Assembly (NCBI GenBank): GCA_005116835.1
Contig: SWDM01000023.1
Span: 1 to 64,000 of the forward strand
Direction: 5' to 3'
Length of the DNA: 64,000 nucleotides
Origin: Nitrospira sp.
Lineage (GTDB): Bacteria > Nitrospirota > Nitrospiria > Nitrospirales > Nitrospiraceae
The notes beneath the pieces were generated by a model, which was not told where the DNA came from, ran no database searches, and was given only the letters and a program-made list of their open reading frames with translations. The position numbers and the translations under genes are program-made. Positions 5,982-46,635 of the stretch are shown one piece after another. Within the stretch, counting starts at the first letter, position 1, and each line of letters opens with the position of its first letter.

Positions 5982-6605
5982 CACAAGTTGATGCGGAACG
6001 CAACCGTATCCCGCGCATCGCCAATGGAATGATCGGCATCGACCCAGGCTTCAATGATGTAATCACCACTTCGGGCGGCGAGAAAGTACCTCACCCGAAA
6101 GAATTGCAGCAATCCATCGAGCGCCCGGGACAAGCCCAGCGCGGTATCAATAGAAAGCTCGTGGCACGGCTGCATGAGCGTATCAAAAACCAACGGAAAG
6201 ACAGAAACCACAGGGTGTCGTTGCGGTTGGTGCAGGAAAATTCCTTGATCGTTTTCTCAAAGGACAACATCAAGGGAATGGCAAAGAAGTTTGGGAAGTC
6301 AGTGGCATCAAGTGGTCACGCGGAACTTCGTAATCAGATCGCGTACAAATGCCTTGCAGGCGGTACGCGATATATGGAAGTTTCTGGCAGGAATTCCACA
6401 AAGACATGCTCATCGTGCGGCTCGTTATCCGGGCCAAGCGGGTTGAGTATGCTTTCAGTAAGGCAATGGAGTTGTGGCTGTGGAGCCAAGCACCACAGAG
6501 ATGTCAATGCTGCCGTCAACACTCTTTTGCTGGGCATGGAATGTGCTGCGTTGCAAGAATTACGTAATTCTTCCCGGAATCCCCCGGCTTTAGCCGTGGG
6601 GAGGT
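5975..6605 (+). pseudogene. Truncated, catalytically damaged TnpB (IS200/IS605 family)
   Basis: The frame opens at a GTG (5975) and runs to 6721, but TnpB homology ends near 6605. The N-terminal half of a normal TnpB (about 370-400 residues) is missing. What remains includes RuvC-I GIDPGFN, the LVQENSLIV-IKGMAKK region, the zinc ribbon CSSCG...CGCG and RuvC-III HHRDVNAAVN. The RuvC-II glutamate normally found in the VVEDLN-like stretch is replaced (FSKDN, apparently Ser), so nuclease activity is unlikely. Internal spacing is also shorter than usual. No TnpA is nearby. The reading frame continues past the element into unrelated sequence. A dead relic is the best reading; a domesticated nuclease-dead TnpB is less likely because the N-terminal part is gone. 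Confidence 0.75.
6557..6605 (+). repeat. IS200/IS605 right end and omegaRNA-like 3' region
   Basis: A perfect 14-bp palindrome (6557-6570) is followed by the hairpin CCCCGGCT-TT-AGCCGTGGGG (6582-6601) and GAGGTTCA. In IS605-type elements the end of tnpB overlaps the right end in this way, and in active elements this region forms the 3' part of the guide RNA. Here it accompanies a decayed tnpB. Confidence 0.6.
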
Positions 6606-38852: not shown

Positions 38853-38928
38853 GGCGCCGTACCCAAGTGGTTAAGGGAGCAGTCTGCAAAACTGCGATGC
38901 AGCGGTTCGACCCCGCTCGGCGCCTCCA
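38853..38928 (+). tRNA. tRNA-Cys (anticodon GCA)
   Basis: A 76-nt cloverleaf with acceptor stem GGCGCCG/CGGCGCC, anticodon loop CTGCAAA with GCA, T-arm GGTTCGACC, discriminator U and encoded CCA. It is intact. Its last 45 bases are repeated exactly at 47518-47562. Confidence 0.95.
38884..38928 (+). repeat. Left attachment repeat of the tRNA-Cys island
   Basis: The 3' 45 bp of tRNA-Cys, from the anticodon loop to CCA, identical to 47518-47562. This is the usual footprint of integration into a tRNA 3' end. Confidence 0.85.
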
Positions 38929-39038
38929 CACCGCACTCCGTGCGTGGTCTGTCTGGTTCATTTGGTTTCTTTGGTCTATTTGGTTAGTGAAATTCCATGG
39001 CGAGGTGTTTGGCCGGTGAGGCGGAGGAGGACAGAAAT

Positions 39039-39239
39039 ATGAAACTACAGGTTGTAGTAGAAGAGGATGAGGCCGGCTATTTTGCTGCCGAGGTTCCGGC
39101 GCTACCGGGCTGCTTGTCTCAAGGAAAGTCTCGGGAAGAGGCCATCGCGAATGTCAAAGAAGCGGTCGAAGGTTGGCTCGAAGTGATGGAGGCTAAGTGT
39201 GCGGGTGATGCTAGCCAAACCGTCGAAGTTGTTGTCTGA
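39039..39239 (+). CDS. hicB: HicB-family orphan antitoxin
   Basis: 66 residues from the ATG at 39039 with GGAGGAGG upstream; an ATG at 38997 is in frame but less well placed. It is a typical HicB partial RNase-H-like fold: VVVEEDEAGYFAAEVPALPG, the CLSQGKSREEAIANVKEAVEGWLE motif and a short tail with no DNA-binding domain. HicB proteins neutralise HicA mRNA interferases. No HicA follows or precedes it: the next frames are closed within a dozen codons. It is either a solitary antitoxin or the survivor of a broken pair, just inside the island's left edge. Confidence 0.8.
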   Translation: MKLQVVVEEDEAGYFAAEVPALPGCLSQGKSREEAIANVKEAVEGWLEVMEAKCAGDASQTVEVVV

Positions 39240-39403
39240 TGAATATACCCTCTCTGACTCCCAACGCAACGAACTAGATCCTGGCCTTCTTCGAAATCTT
39301 ATCCGCCGCAGATCTCACCGTCGAAGCATTTAACAGTTTCTAACCCTCACCACGCGTATTTTATCTCTTGCCTTTTGTGCCATCGTGAAACTTCGGAGAG
39401 GGC

Positions 39404-39605
39404 AGCACTCCCCTGCCGGCCATCGGGCTCCCTGCCTCTCGGAGCGACCCTTCCGGGCACGTCCCGGCGGAAGTCCTTCTGGAATTCCCTCAGCCGCGAT
39501 CGTTCGATCGCGGAGCTTCGGTCAGTTCCAGCTTTCCTTCCGGGCCGCGCCTCGGTGGGGCCCCGCTCCTTCGGCAAGGTCGCCGATGGCCGGCAGGGGA
39601 GTGCT
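39404..39605. mobile_element. 202-bp palindromic MITE-like element
   Basis: Perfect 23-bp terminal inverted repeats (39404-39426 and 39583-39605, starting AGCACTCCCCTGCCGG) with further partial self-complementarity inward to a central CGCGATCG-TT-CGATCGCG palindrome. No coding capacity. It abuts a broken recombinase gene. Confidence 0.65.
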
Positions 39606-39639
39606 GGTTCGAGCAACGACCCTATCCTATTTCATCCCT

Positions 39640-39905
39640 TCCCTATCGTGGCGGCCATTGCTGAACTGGAGCGGAATATCATCGTGGAGCGAATCCGGGG
39701 CGGAATTAGGCGGGCGAGGGAGCAAGGAAAGCAGCTGGGAAGGCGTCCATTAACTGATCCAAACCTTTTACGGACGGTTCTACGGATGAAGGCTCAAGGG
39801 AAGTCGATTCGAGCGATTGCCGAGGCGGTCAAGGTGACAAAATCCTTTGTCCACAAAACCTGCAAGAATGCCGGCTCTCAAACCCTCGAAATTTCAGCCT
39901 GCTAA
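39640..39905 (+). pseudogene. Serine recombinase (resolvase), C-terminal fragment
   Basis: About 85 codons before the stop at 39905 read as the end of a resolvase/invertase: IAELERNIIVERIRGGIRRA, then QGKQLGRRPL and a helix-turn-helix with SIRAIAEAVKVTKSFVHKTC. The catalytic domain with the active serine is missing; upstream lies the 202-bp palindromic element and unrelated sequence. It is inactive and may be what is left of the island's own recombination gene. Confidence 0.75.
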
Positions 39906-40029
39906 AATTAGCCGTTTGGTGTCCCTTAATCAGATGGTAAATGGCCATTTTGCGACCGTCGGCATTCGGCCAAGAGTGGACGTTCGGTGCCGAGTTCGCA
40001 CCGCCATAAAGCGGTCCTCAGCCCTGCCG

Positions 40030-40101
40030 CATTAACGTGTGAGGTAAGCCGCGCGCGGAGGGCGCAGCCCGGAGCGCGTCGGTTTGACCGAAAGGTTAGG
40101 C
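40030..40101 (-). repeat. attC-like site A
   Basis: CATTAAC at one end and GTTAGGC at the other, with an imperfect palindrome between (GTAAGCCGCGCGC against GCGCGTCGGTTTGAC). It is nearly identical to the site at 42653-42724 and lies four bases after the stop of the minus-strand gene at 40106. Confidence 0.7.
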
Positions 40102-40105
40102 CTCT

Positions 40106-40774
40106 TCACTTGAGGGCCTCCAGGTTAATTTGTGGAAAGTTTGAGTTCGCACTGCTTGCTCGGTACCTCCAGGTCACGAAATGGAGAAAGTTGACCAATA
40201 CGAATACATCCCTAGGTCTGACCGATGTCTTGCCGCCAACGCGCTCAAACACAGCGACAACCCTGTCTGCGGCTATGAGTTTGGCTAGTCGCTTGGATGG
40301 CGCTGACTCAAGGACACATATGATGCCTATGCCAGGACTCTTTGCGCCGTCTTGGAAGGGGGAAAGCCATGGATCGTAGTCCGCGACGACTTTTCTTGAG
40401 TCGACATCGGCGAGGAAACTCTCCAACTGAGCGGTAGCCTTCGGGTAGTTGCTTCGCTTGACCTCAATTACTCCAAAGGCGCTGCTCTTCGGAAGAAGAC
40501 CGAACCCTTCAACTTCGAAGATTGCCGGTACTGGGAACGGAGCCCAAATGATGAGGTCGATTTGCCGCAGTACTGTAGGCAGTGGATAGTCAAGAACCGC
40601 TCCCGTGGATACGCGCATCGGCTGAACAATGCGGTGAACGAGGCTTCGTATCGAGGCCTCCGTGTACTTTCCCAGCAAGTCCGTATTGGAAGTGACCCCC
40701 TTAATTTCAAGAATCGGAGTCAGCTCGGTGACGAGCTGGGCTGCGACAGTACCGAGGTAGTGGCGTAGCTCCAT
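40106..40774 (-). CDS. DUF6602-like nuclease-fold protein (cassette gene)
   Basis: 222 residues. The middle has the pattern of PD-(D/E)XK-fold proteins and of DUF6602: RQIDLIIWAPF (aspartate strand), FGLLPKSSAFGVIEVKRSNY (E-x-K strand), then a helix with QLESFL. Such proteins may bind or cut nucleic acid; function is unproven. It is a cassette gene: an attC-like site lies four bases after its stop and another 12 bases upstream of its start. Defence is a common theme for such cassette cargo, but nothing here proves it. Confidence 0.6.
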   Translation of the reverse strand: MELRHYLGTVAAQLVTELTPILEIKGVTSNTDLLGKYTEASIRSLVHRIVQPMRVSTGAVLDYPLPTVLRQIDLIIWAPFPVPAIFEVEGFGLLPKSSAFGVIEVKRSNYPKATAQLESFLADVDSRKVVADYDPWLSPFQDGAKSPGIGIICVLESAPSKRLAKLIAADRVVAVFERVGGKTSVRPRDVFVLVNFLHFVTWRYRASSANSNFPQINLEALK

Positions 40775-40785
40775 GGTGTGTTGAG

Positions 40786-40852
40786 GCCTAACGTCAGCCT
40801 TCAGCCGAGCAGGCGCGATAGCGACTGCGTCGGCTGAAAGGCATTGTTCTGC
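40786..40852 (-). repeat. attC-like site B
   Basis: GCCTAAC (40786-40792) and GTTCTGC (40846-40852) flank arms CAGCCTTCAGCCGA and TCGGCTGAAAGGC. It overlaps the end of the protease gene. Confidence 0.65.
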
Positions 40853-41556
40853 TAAATCGCGACTCCATTTGGATTCTCTGCTATCAAATCCATCGCAATA
40901 GCTGCACTATAAGCATAGATTATTCCCGTATTTGACCTCACGGACGCCTCGATCGGTTCTCCGTTTATGTGAACCAATTCTTGAGAGAACCTATAACCTG
41001 AGACAATACCAAAAACCACCTCTTGTTTCGGCTTGAGCGCAGATATCACGGGACCTCCCGAAAAACCTGGATTATTGAAACCATCCAAAATCCAGAGTCT
41101 TCCTCCGGGTTGCTCATAGCAACCAGATAAGCACGCCTTTTTTACAAGAGGAAGGTGCAATGCGCCATCGGCTGCTATTGCCTTTGAATGCATCCCAAAG
41201 GGATACCCAACAAAGAAGACATCCTGGCTGAGAAAAACTTCACCTTTGGAAAGTCTGAGCGGGTGATGTGCGCCTATCGGGTAATCAGTTGTAAGGACGA
41301 TTACATCGGTGTCATTTATGCTTAGCCCGATTACGGTGACCTCAACCTTTGTCCATTGAGACTGAAGGAAAATCTCTATTTGATCAGAGGTTTCGACGCC
41401 CTCGAATACGTGCTTCGCAGATACCAAGTATTGCCGGCCATCAATGTCTATGGTGAATGCCGTGCCCGTCGCCCCGTTCCAGCGAACCTCAAACACTCTG
41501 TCGTAGACGTTAAAAGTCAGCATAAAAATCTCTAGAAGTAGAACGGTAGGCATCAC
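40852..41556 (-). CDS. Trypsin-like serine protease (cassette gene)
   Basis: 234 residues as drawn; an ATG at 41523 (MLTFNVYDRVF) is a likely alternative start, because the upstream attC-like site ends near 41538. A chymotrypsin-fold catalytic triad is visible: His49 in YLVSAKHVF, Asp84 in NDTDVIVLTT, and Ser166 in NNPGFSGGPV. There is no export signal, PDZ domain or membrane helix, so it probably works in the cytoplasm. Intracellular trypsin-like proteases occur in conflict and defence settings, but the substrate is unknown. It sits between attC-like sites B and C. Confidence 0.8.
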   Translation of the reverse strand: MMPTVLLLEIFMLTFNVYDRVFEVRWNGATGTAFTIDIDGRQYLVSAKHVFEGVETSDQIEIFLQSQWTKVEVTVIGLSINDTDVIVLTTDYPIGAHHPLRLSKGEVFLSQDVFFVGYPFGMHSKAIAADGALHLPLVKKACLSGCYEQPGGRLWILDGFNNPGFSGGPVISALKPKQEVVFGIVSGYRFSQELVHINGEPIEASVRSNTGIIYAYSAAIAMDLIAENPNGVAI

Positions 41557-41606
41557 CAGCCGTGCGGATCAAGCCCGCGCACGGTCTGGTGCATGCCGTG
41601 TTAGGC
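41538..41606 (-). repeat. attC-like site C
   Basis: GTAGAAC and GTTAGGC flank arms GCATCACCAGCCGTGCG and CGCACGGTCTGGTGCATGC. It overlaps the stop codon of the HEPN-type gene at 41601. Confidence 0.65.
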
Positions 41607-42353
41607 ATCGGATCTCGGTGCGTCCACAGGAATCTTGGCGAGAAGGGCCTTCAGGCGCCTAAGCGACTCCTTGGTGAGCGACTCCTTGATATCAACTTGC
41701 CCGTGGACAACCCGATTTCTCAAGTCGCGCAGGACTTGAAACTCCTTCACCTCGGCTTGGCTCAAGACTCCTTGGCCGAGCAATTGGTTGATGCCGTCAA
41801 CGAGCGCCCGCGGATAGGGAGCAACGCCCCTGGCGGCAGCCAATGCATGCAACCTACGCTCAAGATCAACCCACGAGTTCATAAACACCGCAAGGGGGTC
41901 AGCCGAGTGTGGGTCATCCGCAATGAGCTCAATCCCGTACAGGTTGCGAAACAGGATCTTCGCCAGCTCCGCATATACCTCGACCTTCCTCCGTTCGACC
42001 GTTAGCCCGTTGCCTTGGTGATAGAGCTCATTTCTAAGACGGTGGTACCACTCCACTTCGCCGAGATCAATCCCGTCAAGCTTCTTTGCGGCATGAGTTT
42101 CTAGCGCGTCGAGGAGGCGGGGAAAGCTCTCCGAGAACTCGGCGTACTCCTTGCGCGTTATCTTCAAGCCGGAGATCCGAGTCGGAAGACCCAAGTAGGT
42201 CTTGATCATCAGTTCGACCGCGTTGTCGATACTGATGATCGCCAGTCGGCGGTTGCTGTCCGAGTCCTTGGCAGACAGTAGGCCCAAGCCGTGTCCGAGG
42301 ATTTCGGCCGGCCCAGATGCCCACGGCTGCTTAGTAAAGTCGCTAGTGCCCAC
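41601..42353 (-). CDS. Protein with two HEPN-type motifs (cassette gene)
   Basis: 250 residues, all-helical by composition. It carries two Rx4H motifs of the HEPN class: R107-N108...H112 in HRLRNELYHQG, and R212-N213...H217 in LRDLRNRVVHGQ. HEPN domains often form RNases in toxin and defence systems, or non-catalytic helical modules. Two in tandem suggests an intramolecular dimer. It is flanked by attC-like site C at its 3' end and a GCCTAAC core 17 bp upstream of its start. No antitoxin-like partner (for example MNT) is adjacent. Function is inferred from motifs only. Confidence 0.65.
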   Translation of the reverse strand: MGTSDFTKQPWASGPAEILGHGLGLLSAKDSDSNRRLAIISIDNAVELMIKTYLGLPTRISGLKITRKEYAEFSESFPRLLDALETHAAKKLDGIDLGEVEWYHRLRNELYHQGNGLTVERRKVEVYAELAKILFRNLYGIELIADDPHSADPLAVFMNSWVDLERRLHALAAARGVAPYPRALVDGINQLLGQGVLSQAEVKEFQVLRDLRNRVVHGQVDIKESLTKESLRRLKALLAKIPVDAPRSDA

Positions 42354-42369
42354 TTCTGTGTGCTCCGAT

Positions 42370-42652
42370 GCCTAACTATGTTTAGGCGGATCCGCATAAG
42401 AGCCGGATTTGCCATTTTCTGTCCGTATAAGACGCCACTACGGTTCGTGAACAATACTCCATGCTCGTTGTCGTTTCAATGAGTTGTGACGGCGGGACCA
42501 TGTATCATGGGTTCTTATGCGGGTCGGTGTAAGCCCCCCTTCTGGTAGCGGTCTGTCGTGTACTTCTGCTATGGGTCGAGGACTGCCATCGGCCAAGTGC
42601 GGAAGTTCGGCACCGAGGTGGCACCGCCATAAAGCGGTCCTCAGCCCTGTCG
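42370..42652. repeat. Gene-less cassette-array module, copy 1
   Basis: Between a GCCTAAC-TAT-GTTTAGGC core (42370-42387) and attC-like site D. It contains an inverted pair (GATCCGCATAAGAGCC and GGTTCTTATGCGGGTC) around about 120 bp, then TGTACTTCTGCTATGGGTCG and a CACCGCCATAAAGCGGTCC stretch. Related pieces recur at 39962-40036, 43465-43696, 45133-45255 and 46150-46230. No ORF. Confidence 0.6.
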
Positions 42653-42724
42653 CATTAACGTTGGAGGTAAGCCGCGCGCGGAGGCCGCAGGCCGGAGTGC
42701 GTCGGCTTGACCGAATGGTTAGGC
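42653..42724 (-). repeat. attC-like site D
   Basis: CATTAAC...GTTAGGC with GTAAGCCGCGCGCGG facing AGTGCGTCGGCTTGAC. It is 15 bp after the stop of the minus-strand gene at 42740 and almost the same as site A. Confidence 0.7.
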
Positions 42725-42739
42725 GTTGCCGCGTTGCAC

Positions 42740-43459
42740 TCAGCCATTGCCACGCATATGGACAAGAAGTTCACGCGCGAGAGTCTTCCCCTCATAGACC
42801 CAGACCGCAGAGATCGGTATGCTGACGGCTCGGACAAGGCGATCAACTTCGCTCCCGTAGCTGAAGCCTTGCGGATGGACACTGGAAAGGTGCTCGGCAC
42901 CGTCGGCGACGAAGCAGATTCTGACTGCTGTAGGGTCGTCCAGTGAAGTGCCGGCAGAGATAAGAGTGGCTGTCGCGGAATCGGAGATGCCCGAGCGACC
43001 AGCCCAGCCACGCGATTGGTCAAAGTCGATCCAGTCAGGCCGCGTTACCGAAGCATGATCAAAGATGCTTCCGATCGCTGCGCGAACGACGGCAATGACG
43101 TCGTCTGCGACGCTGCTCTCTGGGAACATGTCCGCGAGCGACGCGAACTTGTGCACATAGGACTTGCGCAGTTCTTGAATGCGACGGACCTCCTGCCACA
43201 CGCCTTGCGACCAATCAAGCGGATTCAAGCTCTTGTCGGCAACGGCGCGATCCAAGTTGGCCTTGAAGCTGTAACCGATATCGGGGGCGTTGAGCGCCTC
43301 CTGACATGCGATTTCGAGCGCTGTCCACGCAAGCACCACGCACAGGCGAACATATGTGCCTCGATCCCATCGATTGGGCGCTTCACGAGAGAGCTGTCGG
43401 ACGTGGAGTGCGTCAGTCCACAAGTGGCAATAAGTGGATTCGACGAGGATAGGGTTCAT
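42740..43459 (-). CDS. HEPN-motif hypothetical protein (cassette gene)
   Basis: About 239 residues from the start at 43459 (MNPILVESTY). The longer frame to 43510 runs through the repeated array module and is not credible. The first 130 residues are helical and contain an Rx4H motif, R98-KSYV-H103 in QELRKSYVHKF, typical of HEPN domains. The C-terminal half is mixed and unrecognised. It starts six bases after a GCCTAAC core and ends 15 bp before attC-like site D, as expected of an integron cassette. Possible RNase or defence role, unproven. Confidence 0.6.
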   Translation of the reverse strand: MNPILVESTYCHLWTDALHVRQLSREAPNRWDRGTYVRLCVVLAWTALEIACQEALNAPDIGYSFKANLDRAVADKSLNPLDWSQGVWQEVRRIQELRKSYVHKFASLADMFPESSVADDVIAVVRAAIGSIFDHASVTRPDWIDFDQSRGWAGRSGISDSATATLISAGTSLDDPTAVRICFVADGAEHLSSVHPQGFSYGSEVDRLVRAVSIPISAVWVYEGKTLARELLVHMRGNG

Positions 43460-43464
43460 GCGAC

Positions 43465-43696
43465 GCCTAACTATGTTTAGGCCGATCCGCATAAGAGCCG
43501 GATCTGCCATTTTCTATCCGCGTAACACTCCTTCAATGATCGTGAACAATATCCCATCATCGACGGTGGTGCAAATGGCTGCTTTTCAATCCGGTGATCA
43601 ACCGCTCAGGGTCGGATGGCGACGGTCGGAGATCGGCCACAAGCGGAACTTCGACACCGAGATTGCACCGCTGTAAAGCGGTCCTCAGCCCTATAG
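43465..43696. repeat. Gene-less cassette-array module, copy 2
   Basis: Repeats the left part of the module at 42370 (core GCCTAAC-TAT-GTTTAGGC, then GATCCGCATAAGAGCCGGAT and GTGAACAATA) and its final CACCG...TAAAGCGGTCCTCAGCCCT segment. The middle is different and shorter. Confidence 0.6.
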
Positions 43697-43759
43697 CATT
43701 ATCGTAAAGTTGAGGGGCGCGCCGCTCTTGGCGCGTCCCTCTCGAACGCCATGTTGGGC
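43697..43759 (-). repeat. attC-like site E
   Basis: Ends with the canonical GTTGGGC (43753-43759). Arms TTGAGGGGCGCGCC and GGCGCGTCCCTCTCGAA form a strong stem. It lies 19 bp after the stop of the minus-strand hydrolase gene. Confidence 0.7.
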
Positions 43760-43778
43760 TCAGTCGATGCAGTTGTAC

Positions 43779-45095
43779 TCACATACACTCCCGAGAGCTA
43801 CGTGCAGTGAGCATTCTCTTGCCTTGTGTAATTGCTATGTAGTCGTTCAGGAACTTCCGCAAAGTTTCCTCAAAGACTGTCGTGTGATCTAGAACGACAC
43901 TCACGCTAGCGTGGGCAATCAGAAACGGGCTATTTGATCGATGGTTCTCTGTTGGCGTTAGGCGAACACCAGCGATTGATGGAAGATTCGTGAGATCCAA
44001 ATTCTCAATTGCACATGGGGCACTTGTATAGAGGCTCGGGTCAAAGCCCGGCGTCAATTGAGACGAATCAGATACGATTTCAATCGAATGCGTACGAAAG
44101 GGTTCGTACTCGCCTAGTGCTTGGGTCCAAAGCGCTCGTTGACCAGGACGAAAGTCTGGCCTCAGAAATAGAGCGTCCAGATTCCGGCCGATTGGGAAGA
44201 GTACTTGACGAGGAACGTCTCCCGCAGAAGACACGACCAACATCACTGGGTTTTGCTGTCGCCCGAACGGTAGCGACGTTGAGAGTCGCCAGATTCGCTC
44301 GAACTGAAGAGCCTCAAAGGCCGGGTTAATCAACACGACTAGGTCACCAAACCCTATCAGGCCAGTTATTTCATTCAACTTTCGTGAAGTGTCGGTTTTT
44401 GCATGCAGCGCAAGCAACTCGCGTTCGATTTCATAAGCAACCGATCGAAACAGAACTTGGCCACCAAAGCTGTGTCCGAACGACGTTAAACCCATGAACA
44501 GATCGGTAGTGCCAAAAGCCCTTTGGTCGCGTTTTTCTCGATAGAGTGTGTTTAATCGGCTGAGAAACTCCCGCAGGTCGCCCTCACCAACACGCTCTGC
44601 GGCTGCCTTACGGCTCCAAAACGTTGCATAGTCCAAAAACCCCGGGAGAGAACGCCCACGCCATCCCACGTAGATTGACACCACGTAGATTGACACCACG
44701 GAGAGAGATTCGCTGCCGGTGAGCGCTTTTCTCGACTGTCGATAAACAGCGCTCTCGGGGTTGGAAATATCAATTAGACGCCTGCGCGTGTCTGCCACAG
44801 ATGCTGCAAAGTCACGCAGGTTCTGATTGTCAGGAGCTGCATCGTGGTGCCATCCATGAACGAACAACAAAACAATGACGTTAGAGGTTTGTGATAACTC
44901 GGAAATCCTTTCGAGCGCGCGATTTGGCACCGAATTGTCCCAGAACTGACCATGGTCATCAATTTGGATAACGAAATCATCTGGAGCAGTCGAGGAGGGC
45001 ACTATCGCTGGAAATTGCTTGTGGTTGTAGGCGCAACCTGTGAGCCAAAGCACAAGGAGCAAACCCAACGCGCCCATAACTGCGTAATTATTCAT
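43779..45095 (-). CDS. Lipoprotein alpha/beta-hydrolase (cassette gene)
   Basis: 438 residues. A signal peptide ends in the lipobox LTGC (Cys21). An alpha/beta-hydrolase core follows: an oxyanion-type FVHGWHHD motif near residue 79 and the nucleophile elbow GHSFGGQ with Ser209. This is typical of DUF900-like esterases or lipases. A five-residue duplication, VVSIYVVSIYV (about 133-143), comes from a perfect 15-bp tandem repeat in the DNA. A lipid-anchored hydrolase in a cassette is unusual; the substrate is unknown. The GCTCAAC core lies about 38 bp upstream of the start. Confidence 0.75.
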   Translation of the reverse strand: MNNYAVMGALGLLLVLWLTGCAYNHKQFPAIVPSSTAPDDFVIQIDDHGQFWDNSVPNRALERISELSQTSNVIVLLFVHGWHHDAAPDNQNLRDFAASVADTRRRLIDISNPESAVYRQSRKALTGSESLSVVSIYVVSIYVGWRGRSLPGFLDYATFWSRKAAAERVGEGDLREFLSRLNTLYREKRDQRAFGTTDLFMGLTSFGHSFGGQVLFRSVAYEIERELLALHAKTDTSRKLNEITGLIGFGDLVVLINPAFEALQFERIWRLSTSLPFGRQQNPVMLVVSSAGDVPRQVLFPIGRNLDALFLRPDFRPGQRALWTQALGEYEPFRTHSIEIVSDSSQLTPGFDPSLYTSAPCAIENLDLTNLPSIAGVRLTPTENHRSNSPFLIAHASVSVVLDHTTVFEETLRKFLNDYIAITQGKRMLTARSSRECM

Positions 45096-45132
45096 TCATG
45101 TTCTCCCAGATGACCAGCTATCACTCGCCGGA

Positions 45133-45290
45133 GCTCAACTATGTTTAGGCCGGTCCGTATAAGAACCGGATTTGCCAATTTTTATCCATATAACACGCCA
45201 CTACGGTTGGTGAACAATACTCCAAACTGGTGCCGTTTCAATGAGTTACAACTGAGAAAGAAACAAAGGTGTCTGACACCCTTGTTCTCT
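45133..45290. repeat. Gene-less cassette-array module, copy 3 (left part)
   Basis: GCTCAAC-TAT-GTTTAGGC, then GGTCCGTATAAGAACCGGATT and GGTGAACAATACTCC, matching copies 1 and 2. It is followed by a hairpin, AAGGGTGTC-like arms around GACACCCTT (45268-45283). The matching right part lies at 46150-46230, as though the module were split by the two cassettes between. Confidence 0.55.
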
Positions 45291-45295
45291 CTTAG

Positions 45296-45505
45296 TTAGT
45301 TTCCGATCGGCTCTTCACCAGTAGTTATGGACCCATTGGGATGAACATACACCGGCGATTCTTCGAAAATTGCAGCGAGTGCTGCGAGGTCAGCTGATGG
45401 AACGGGTATCCAGTTGCTCCAGCCGCCGTTTACGACCTTGATTCGATAGGCGCCGCCGGTCTGTTGATGCCATCCAAGTGCGAACTTTTCTATGAGAACT
45501 GCCAT
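45296..45505 (-). CDS. Small hypothetical protein (cassette gene)
   Basis: 69 residues with AAGGGA about seven bases before the ATG. The sequence begins MAVLIEKFALGWHQQTGGAY and has a WSNWIPV strand and an acidic C-terminal half (ADLAALAAIFEESPVYVHPNG). It is compact and soluble; no family is recognised. It starts 45 bp from attC-like site F. Short unique proteins of this kind are frequent in integron cassettes. Confidence 0.6.
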   Translation of the reverse strand: MAVLIEKFALGWHQQTGGAYRIKVVNGGWSNWIPVPSADLAALAAIFEESPVYVHPNGSITTGEEPIGN

Positions 45506-45549
45506 TGCGAACTCCCTTCAGTGTGGTTGGGAAGATAGTTCTATCTGAC

Positions 45550-45613
45550 GCCTAACGTGCGATCTCAGGGGAGCGCCGCAAGCGGCGCGTCCCGCTGGAG
45601 CGATTTGTTGGGC
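45550..45613 (-). repeat. attC-like site F
   Basis: The best site of the array: GCCTAAC (45550-45556) and GTTGGGC (45607-45613), with arms CGATCTCAGGGGAGCGCCGC and GCGGCGCGTCCCGCTGGAGCG. It lies nine bases after the stop of the lipoprotein gene at 45623. Confidence 0.8.
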
Positions 45614-45622
45614 CGCAACTCA

Positions 45623-46094
45623 CTACTTTGTCACCCCACCGTCAACTATCTTGCTTTCTACTGGAAAGCTAGCGGGGGAGTTTAGGTCTGGTACACCGTT
45701 CACTACTGGGTACAGAATTGCAGATGGTATACAAATGACTTGCTTCACCCCTTTATCGGGCGACATTGTCGCTATCGCCGTCCCAAGACTCGCAATTGCG
45801 GTGATTGTCTCGGGTACTTTCGTATCAACCTTTTGACCAGCGTTAGTCAGAATGCCATTGGAAAATGCAACAGAGAGGTCTGACGAGCCATAACCGCTCT
45901 TAAATTTCACAAACTTCCTGTCACCAGGAAGAGATATTAGCGTGGCGGTAGACACGCAATCCTTGTTCACTGAAACGAACAGATACGGCTTTGGCTCGTA
46001 GAAAGAAATTCCTTGCTCACCAAAGTCCAGACCTGCACACCCCCCCCAGAACTGTTGAAGCTCCGAGCAAAACAGTAATCTTTGTGTATTTCAT
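45623..46094 (-). pseudogene. Frameshifted lipoprotein (cassette gene)
   Basis: Start at 46094 with GAGGAG six bases before the ATG. The first 20 codons give a lipoprotein signal (MKYTKITVLLGASTVLGG), but the frame then ends early. Removing one base from a run of eight G on the coding strand (C run at 46040-46047) restores a lipobox LGGCAGLDFG and a continuous protein of about 156 residues to the stop at 45623. The mature part has VNKDCVSTATLISLPGDR and FKSGYGSSDLSVAF. The cause could be sequencing error, decay or slippage-based phase variation. The family is not recognised. Confidence 0.65.
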
Positions 46095-46635
46095 AACATC
46101 TCCTCAGTTAATTACCTGACTCTCGTTGCGGCCCATCGACTATTAATTACGGGTTCTTATACGGATCGGCGTAAGCCCCCTTCTGGTAGCGGTCGGTCAT
46201 GTACTTCTGCTTTGGGTCGAGACCTGCCGGTCACCGGGCATGTGTTCTGACACTACCTGCCCGATCAAATACAAATTTTTACATCTAAGCACTCTTACTC
46301 GATCAATAAGTGCGGTCGTAAAACGGTCGTATAGTAGAGCTACTTTCCCCTCATTCTGTCTCACTCGGCCTCACTCGTTCGCAAGTCGCAAGCTGATGAA
46401 TTTATGGCTGGAAATGTGTGGGACACGCATCAGCGGTGAGAATGCTGAATTCGCCCAAAATCAAATCCTGCCTTTGGCACCAGTTAAGCTGCGACCTGCG
46501 GTTTACGAAGTTCAGCAAGCTCTACCTCAGACAACCTAAGCCGACAAGAAACCACTAAACTGGATGCTCCAGACATGGGGCCTGATGGGACTGGTTTGTC
46601 CTGTCCTGGTAGCAGCGTGGTAGCAGATGGATCGG
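46095..46635. other. Gene-less stretch at the right end of the array
   Basis: Contains the split right part of the array module (46150-46230, TTCTTATACGGATCGGCGTA and ATGTACTTCTGCTTTGGGTC). The rest shows no credible gene. Confidence 0.45.

Follow-up and report, generated by a model that had tools for sequence, protein, structure and literature searches.

A tandem array of three probable integrase-less integron units in Nitrospira, with attI-bearing capture ends shared across the genus

The common view of CALIN is that they are integrons in decay or the result of off-target insertions. They are described as clusters of attC sites without an integrase, and two of them have previously been reported in Ca. 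Nitrospira inopinata; the attI sites outside class 1 integrons, moreover, are poorly described (IntegronFinder 2.0, PMC9024848). Sites derived from attI can also lie inside cassette arrays, as in the partial-attI (delta-attI) cassettes of class 1 and class 2 integrons (PMC12901181). Both the presence of CALIN in Nitrospira (PMC9024848) and attI-derived sites inside arrays (PMC12901181) are thus already known. In Treponema phagedenis, intI was lost and attC sites were left behind (PMC3607928). Integrons with MITE-like ends, or integron mobilization units, go back to Gillings 2009 (cited in PMC8618304). In the papers open to search, largely outside the subscription literature, we found no description of a genus-wide multiplication of promoter-attI regions without intI.

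The DNA under study, hereafter the window, is a stretch of 64 kb from a Nitrospira genome (the host), in which an earlier note had described six minus-strand genes, each followed by a palindrome. All six palindromes are present, each directly 3' of a minus-strand gene, whereas the gene count has to be corrected, as there are seven genes within 40030-45613, of which that at 45296-45505 lacks an attC. The array is made up of three tandem units, all on the minus strand and all in the order A-cassettes-attC-B, where A is a region with a promoter-like sequence and attI, and B is a closing right end of 72 bp; with the attI copies and right ends, its full extent is about 39962-46221. The A region of unit 1 is split, its left part being separated from its right part by a lipoprotein gene, an attC and the 69-aa ORF, and several attC sites are set apart from the gene that comes next by a repeated non-coding block. 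The features are as follows, R1 being the attC model described below.

46134..46221, minus strand: left part of A, unit 1 (nhmmer, A positions 1-89), about 0.9 kb from the right part
45623..46095, minus strand: cassette gene, probable lipoprotein (ORF 45623-45970; lipobox-like LGGC in the upstream frame, read from the sequence)
45550..45613, minus strand: attC (R1 30.6 bits, E 4e-4)
45296..45505, minus strand: small ORF of 69 aa (ORF list; no R1 match behind it)
45127..45256, minus strand: right part of A with attI, unit 1; cut 45139/45138 (nhmmer and junction alignment)
43779..45095, minus strand: cassette gene, lipoprotein with a GHSFGG serine-hydrolase-like motif (ORF; motif read from the sequence)
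43697..43759, minus strand: attC (R1 37.8 bits, E 1.6e-5)
43634..43702, minus strand: right end B, unit 1; cut 43703/43702 (nhmmer and junction alignment)
43460..43576, minus strand: right part of A with attI, unit 2; cut 43471/43470 (nhmmer and junction alignment)
42740..43459, minus strand: cassette gene, unknown product (ORF; absent from 60 relatives)
42653..42724, minus strand: attC (R1 59 bits, E 9.5e-10)
42587..42658, minus strand: right end B, unit 2; cut 42659/42658 (nhmmer and junction alignment)
42371..42580, minus strand: complete A with attI, unit 3; cut 42376/42375 (nhmmer and junction alignment; the same region follows an intact intI in locus L093)
42451-42479, minus strand: promoter-like sequence in A of unit 3 (motif scan)
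41601..42353, minus strand: cassette gene, weakly HEPN/DUF4145-like (profile search; 68% DNA match beside attI in genome G007)
41537..41606, minus strand: attC (R1 18.1 bits, E 0.13)
40852..41523, minus strand: cassette gene, trypsin-like peptidase (Pfam Trypsin_2, E 4.5e-10)
40786..40852, minus strand: attC (R1 22.2 bits, E 0.02)
40106..40774, minus strand: cassette gene, PD-(D/E)XK nuclease-like (PADLOC PD_DExK, E 9.3e-8)
40030..40101, minus strand: attC (R1 45.6 bits, E 4.5e-7)
39964..40035, minus strand: right end B, unit 3; cut 40036/40035 (nhmmer and junction alignment)

The reading of the products as cassette cargo, with a putative role in defence, is partly supported: the protease and the nuclease-like protein that had been proposed are borne out by Pfam (E 4.5e-10) and PADLOC (E 9e-8) respectively, while the HEPN-type assignment finds only weak profile matches (E 0.002-0.007); the remaining cassette products, including the lipoprotein at 43779..45095, had no family match in profile searches. 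The frame of the lipoprotein gene at 45623..46095 is broken at a run of G (at least 8 G/C at about 46030-46045), which may reflect phase variation or else an error of assembly. In two genomes a truncated attI region is immediately preceded by a hairpin with GGTGTCNGACACC: in the window (45245-45295) and in locus L104 (about 6430-6480, minus strand), where the hairpin comes after an attC cut point.

In place of hand-written attC scanners, which had too little power, we used a covariance model (R1) built from 17 attC sites, all outside the window (in the host integron on contig C10 and in related Nitrospira loci); it contains 10 pairs, 4 of which show compensatory changes. Folding of these sites with RNAalifold gave outer R''/R' pairs, inner L''/L' pairs and one extrahelical base, which is the attC architecture. 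In the 64 kb, R1 at E<=10 matched precisely the six palindromes, all on the minus strand, and no other place. The two weakest sites (E 0.02 and 0.13) are marginal alone and are supported by their position, strand and spacing, and the 59-bit score at 42653 is not fully independent, since the training site L009:6053-6124 is a close relative of it. Genome-wide (3.9 Mb), R1 gave 17 matches at E<=0.5, mostly adjoining intI, intI fragments or attI copies; attC-type sites are therefore not scattered, and such palindromes are not widespread outside gene 3' ends. The reported palindromes are thus real attC sites. Being palindromic and placed at gene 3' ends, they could be thought to be transcription terminators or other repeats; this is extremely improbable, as they share the attC architecture with its extrahelical base and compensatory changes, are matched by the model at these six places alone in 64 kb, and end at the integron cut point.

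The array has six clustered attC sites, where a CALIN has at least two, and contig C16 encodes no IntI over the cut-off, the nearest tyrosine recombinase to the array (C16:67012) reaching 18 bits; a complete integron, with intI in cis, it is not. The absence of a visible integrase, as first described, is confirmed by an intI search, in which the sole intact intI of the host is placed outside the contig of the array, at C10:192882-193826 (464 bits; cut-off 265); an attI lies beyond the 3' end of this gene, and its cassettes share its orientation. The label of CALIN in Nitrospira-type DNA, upheld by the attC model and the integrase search, is therefore correct but incomplete, for the attI sites and the B ends had been missed. 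Like a CALIN, the array consists of attC sites and cassette genes without intI in cis; CALIN, however, are defined by attC alone, and the Nitrospira units add attI, a promoter-like sequence and B, in tandem and genus-wide. As each of the three units carries an attI region and B, tandem integrase-less integrons with their own attI, members of a genus-wide family, are a better description than a bare attC cluster.

The host has no fewer than five further loci with integrons or their remnants, one of them complete, two with intI 3' fragments and the others with attI regions and attC (G000:C10:188028-192399, C10:130984-132063, C10:479332-480196, C6:38716-44786 and C6:194802-195566). The intI 3' fragments lie at C6:194802 and C10:131947, and behind the former come an attI-like TTATGCGGATCCGCATAAGCATTG^TTAGG and an attC-bearing cassette. 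With intI, attI and cassettes in one direction, the C10 integron and that of the relative G017 resemble the Treponema type, whose intI is transcribed toward attI (PMC3607928), and from which they differ in belonging to the Nitrospira lineage, with many attI copies per genome without intI. In locus L009 (7847-9373, minus strand) an intact integrase frame extends about 180 aa upstream of the IntI domain, and the G017 integrase frame likewise extends upstream of this domain.

The identity of A as the native attI region follows from its neighbours in two relatives: in G017 (L093) it stands directly after the stop codon of an intact intI and is followed by a cassette with attC, and in G044 (L095) it stands after an intI with one internal stop. 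As in a complete integron, attI thus precedes the first cassette in the three window copies, which correspond to the region after intI in L093. The gene-side end of A reads TCTTATACGGA...CTCTTATGCGGATCCGCCTAAACATAG^TTAGGC and contains two direct repeats and two inverted core boxes, an arrangement known from attI1. The attI of the C10 integrase differs from this A-type attI. In about a dozen A copies unrelated DNA takes the place of the left side, and the copies are conserved again from model position 50-63 onwards; just downstream of this point comes a conserved TTGAAA-16/17-TATTGT, at the same place in the A copies, and then attI. We regard this element as a putative cassette promoter Pc; motifs of the TTGAAA/TATTGT type were not more frequent than in shuffled sequences, so that the pattern scan alone is no proof of a promoter.

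Conservation ends precisely at the integron cut point G^TT in both parts (45 attI copies and 48 B copies). Among the 45 distinct attI copies, the information content is 1.5 bits per position up to the G^TT core and about 0.1 immediately beyond it. B, which is 72 bp long (TTAATGCGACAGGGCTGAGG...CTTGGCCG) and follows the last attC, shows the mirror picture in its 48 distinct copies, in which diverse attC arms run up to CG^TT and conserved B begins beyond; at 39 of the 48 a model attC ends at the B cut. Where a locus has A, attC and B together, they almost always stand in this order. No empty attI|B junction was found in the 32 genomes of the genus with 3 mismatches allowed.

On their outer sides, too, A and B are sharply bounded at many places (by CGACCC and TTGGCCG respectively), as might be expected if A-cassettes-B were a MITE-like element that has short inverted repeats at its ends and is mobilized in trans by a transposase. 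The edges match at 13 of 19 positions in the inverted register and do not match in other registers; a free local alignment, however, did not surpass those of shuffled sequences (p 0.47), searches revealed neither a target duplication nor an empty site nor a transposase, and the left inverted repeat was looked for upstream of the intact intI and not found. Searches for an empty site with the joined window flanks returned dispersed serine-recombinase remnants and another repeat but never a joined site, those with the joined L101 flanks gave no joined site either, and five loci with both window-flank pieces have other DNA in between. We therefore consider a transposon-like origin quite unlikely. 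The likeness to MITE-flanked integrons or integron mobilization units is that an array is bounded by short repeats and possibly moved in trans (PMC8618304); the Nitrospira units differ in that their inverted repeats are weak, no target duplication was found and attI lies inside the repeated end.

The flanks of the array have features of their own. Both (39624-39905 and 46224-46423) are repeats dispersed in 17 of 61 genomes, often paired 0.7-8.5 kb apart with variable DNA between, and perhaps represent another cargo-carrying element. The former, on the plus strand, is the C-terminal remnant of a small serine recombinase; just upstream of it, an inverted repeat with 34-nt arms (88%) at 39403-39606 may be a small disrupting insertion. 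Next to the array lies a tRNA-Cys (38853-39239, together with the short ORF behind it, whose product resembles a HicB antitoxin on visual inspection), a possible island boundary.

The comparison set comprised 61 genomes (the host and 60 relatives), of which 32 belong to the genus. Matches to A and B occur in 31 of the 61 genomes and 28 of the 32 in the genus, with up to 14 matches each, while an intI over the cut-off is found in 3 of the 61 and 2 of the 32, counts to be read with the proviso that the relatives are mostly metagenome assemblies and some missing intI may be assembly loss. With dozens of attI copies in genomes mostly without intI, the capture sites have spread far more widely across related genomes than the enzyme. 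A set of 84,980 genomes of bacteria and archaea contains 31 stretches with a 20-base core of B, 28 of which are titled Nitrospira, Nitrospiraceae, Nitrospirales or Nitrospirae and two of which come, by record title, from Nitrosospira (isolate CMX). The remaining one, in Arthrobacter (L146), is probably a chance match, since B is otherwise missing there. IMG/VR contained no exact match to the 20-base core, and PLSDB no match of the array region.

The cassettes behave otherwise. Hardly any of those in the window recur in the 60 relatives, in which A and B persist; the notable exception is in G007, where the HEPN-like gene has a 68% match at a distance of about 30 bp from a further attI copy. Such a pattern, with common ends around variable contents, is what integron activity leaves. 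This bears on plain decay, in which chromosomal integrons would have lost intI by deletion, been duplicated and scattered by general recombination and become immobile. Several A copies are indeed preceded by decaying intI 3' remnants, and the host retains such fragments on C6 and C10. The cassettes, however, are wholly different between copies whose flanks are conserved, which implies that recombination continued after the copies arose or wherever IntI was borrowed, and plain decay is hence unlikely.

The repeated non-coding block raises another possibility, namely that IntI excises the 285-bp B-A-attI block between attC and attI and re-inserts it at other attC sites, which would make it one of a Nitrospira family of mobile, non-coding attI cassettes of 0.3 kb and would sow pads of promoter and attI within arrays. 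Both ends of some of these blocks are cut points, so they might move in this way. The blocks in the window, L097 and L099 are 89-92% identical to the window copy, follow three different attC sites and precede three different cassettes, with G^TT cuts at both ends; ten B-A junctions occur in eight loci and the window, and in L104 the attI block stands directly after the attC cut without B. IntI1, in addition, excises and inserts attC-ORF-partial-attI cassettes (PMC12901181). On the other hand, the identical picture would result if the tandem were fixed and cassettes were exchanged to either side of it, the test of A/B co-evolution had no power, and no array was found with and without the block at one place, so that we hold the proposal to be tentative and rather doubtful. 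If it is true, one rare integrase would serve many landing and expression pads in scattered places of the genome, mostly in hosts that borrow the enzyme. The delta-attI cassettes of class 1 and 2 integrons are similar in that attI-derived sites lie within arrays downstream of attC and are used by IntI1 (PMC12901181); those consist, however, of an ORF with a partial attI replacing attC, whereas the Nitrospira block is non-coding, contains the whole attI region and often B. No clear ORF was found between attC and attI in the 285-bp block, which is therefore not an attC-ORF-partial-attI gene cassette. A group II intron or IS in attC was ruled out, there being no Rfam match and no long ORF and the block ends being cut points.

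Taken together, the identity of the attC sites, that of attI as the region after an intact intI in a relative, and the exact G^TT boundaries make it highly probable that the array represents three tandem integron units without an intI of their own, whose cassettes were moved by IntI acting in trans. Each unit consists of a capture end A with its promoter-like sequence and attI, at least one cassette with attC, and B joined to the last attC at the cut point. Cassettes would have entered by IntI-catalysed attI x attC recombination, and the promoter in A would transcribe the first cassette behind each attI. The present-day source of the enzyme may be the single intact IntI on C10, though its own, different attI tells against its use of the A type; an earlier source may have been cognate intI genes now decayed to 3' fragments.

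For CALIN this means that the capture site has been retained and amplified within a genus that mostly lacks the enzyme, which implies IntI in trans. It offers a concrete and testable route by which CALIN may originate, and such arrays may stay expressed. Furthermore, the A family permits attI sequence models beyond class 1 integrons, and its about 45 natural attI variants are available for studies of binding and recombination.
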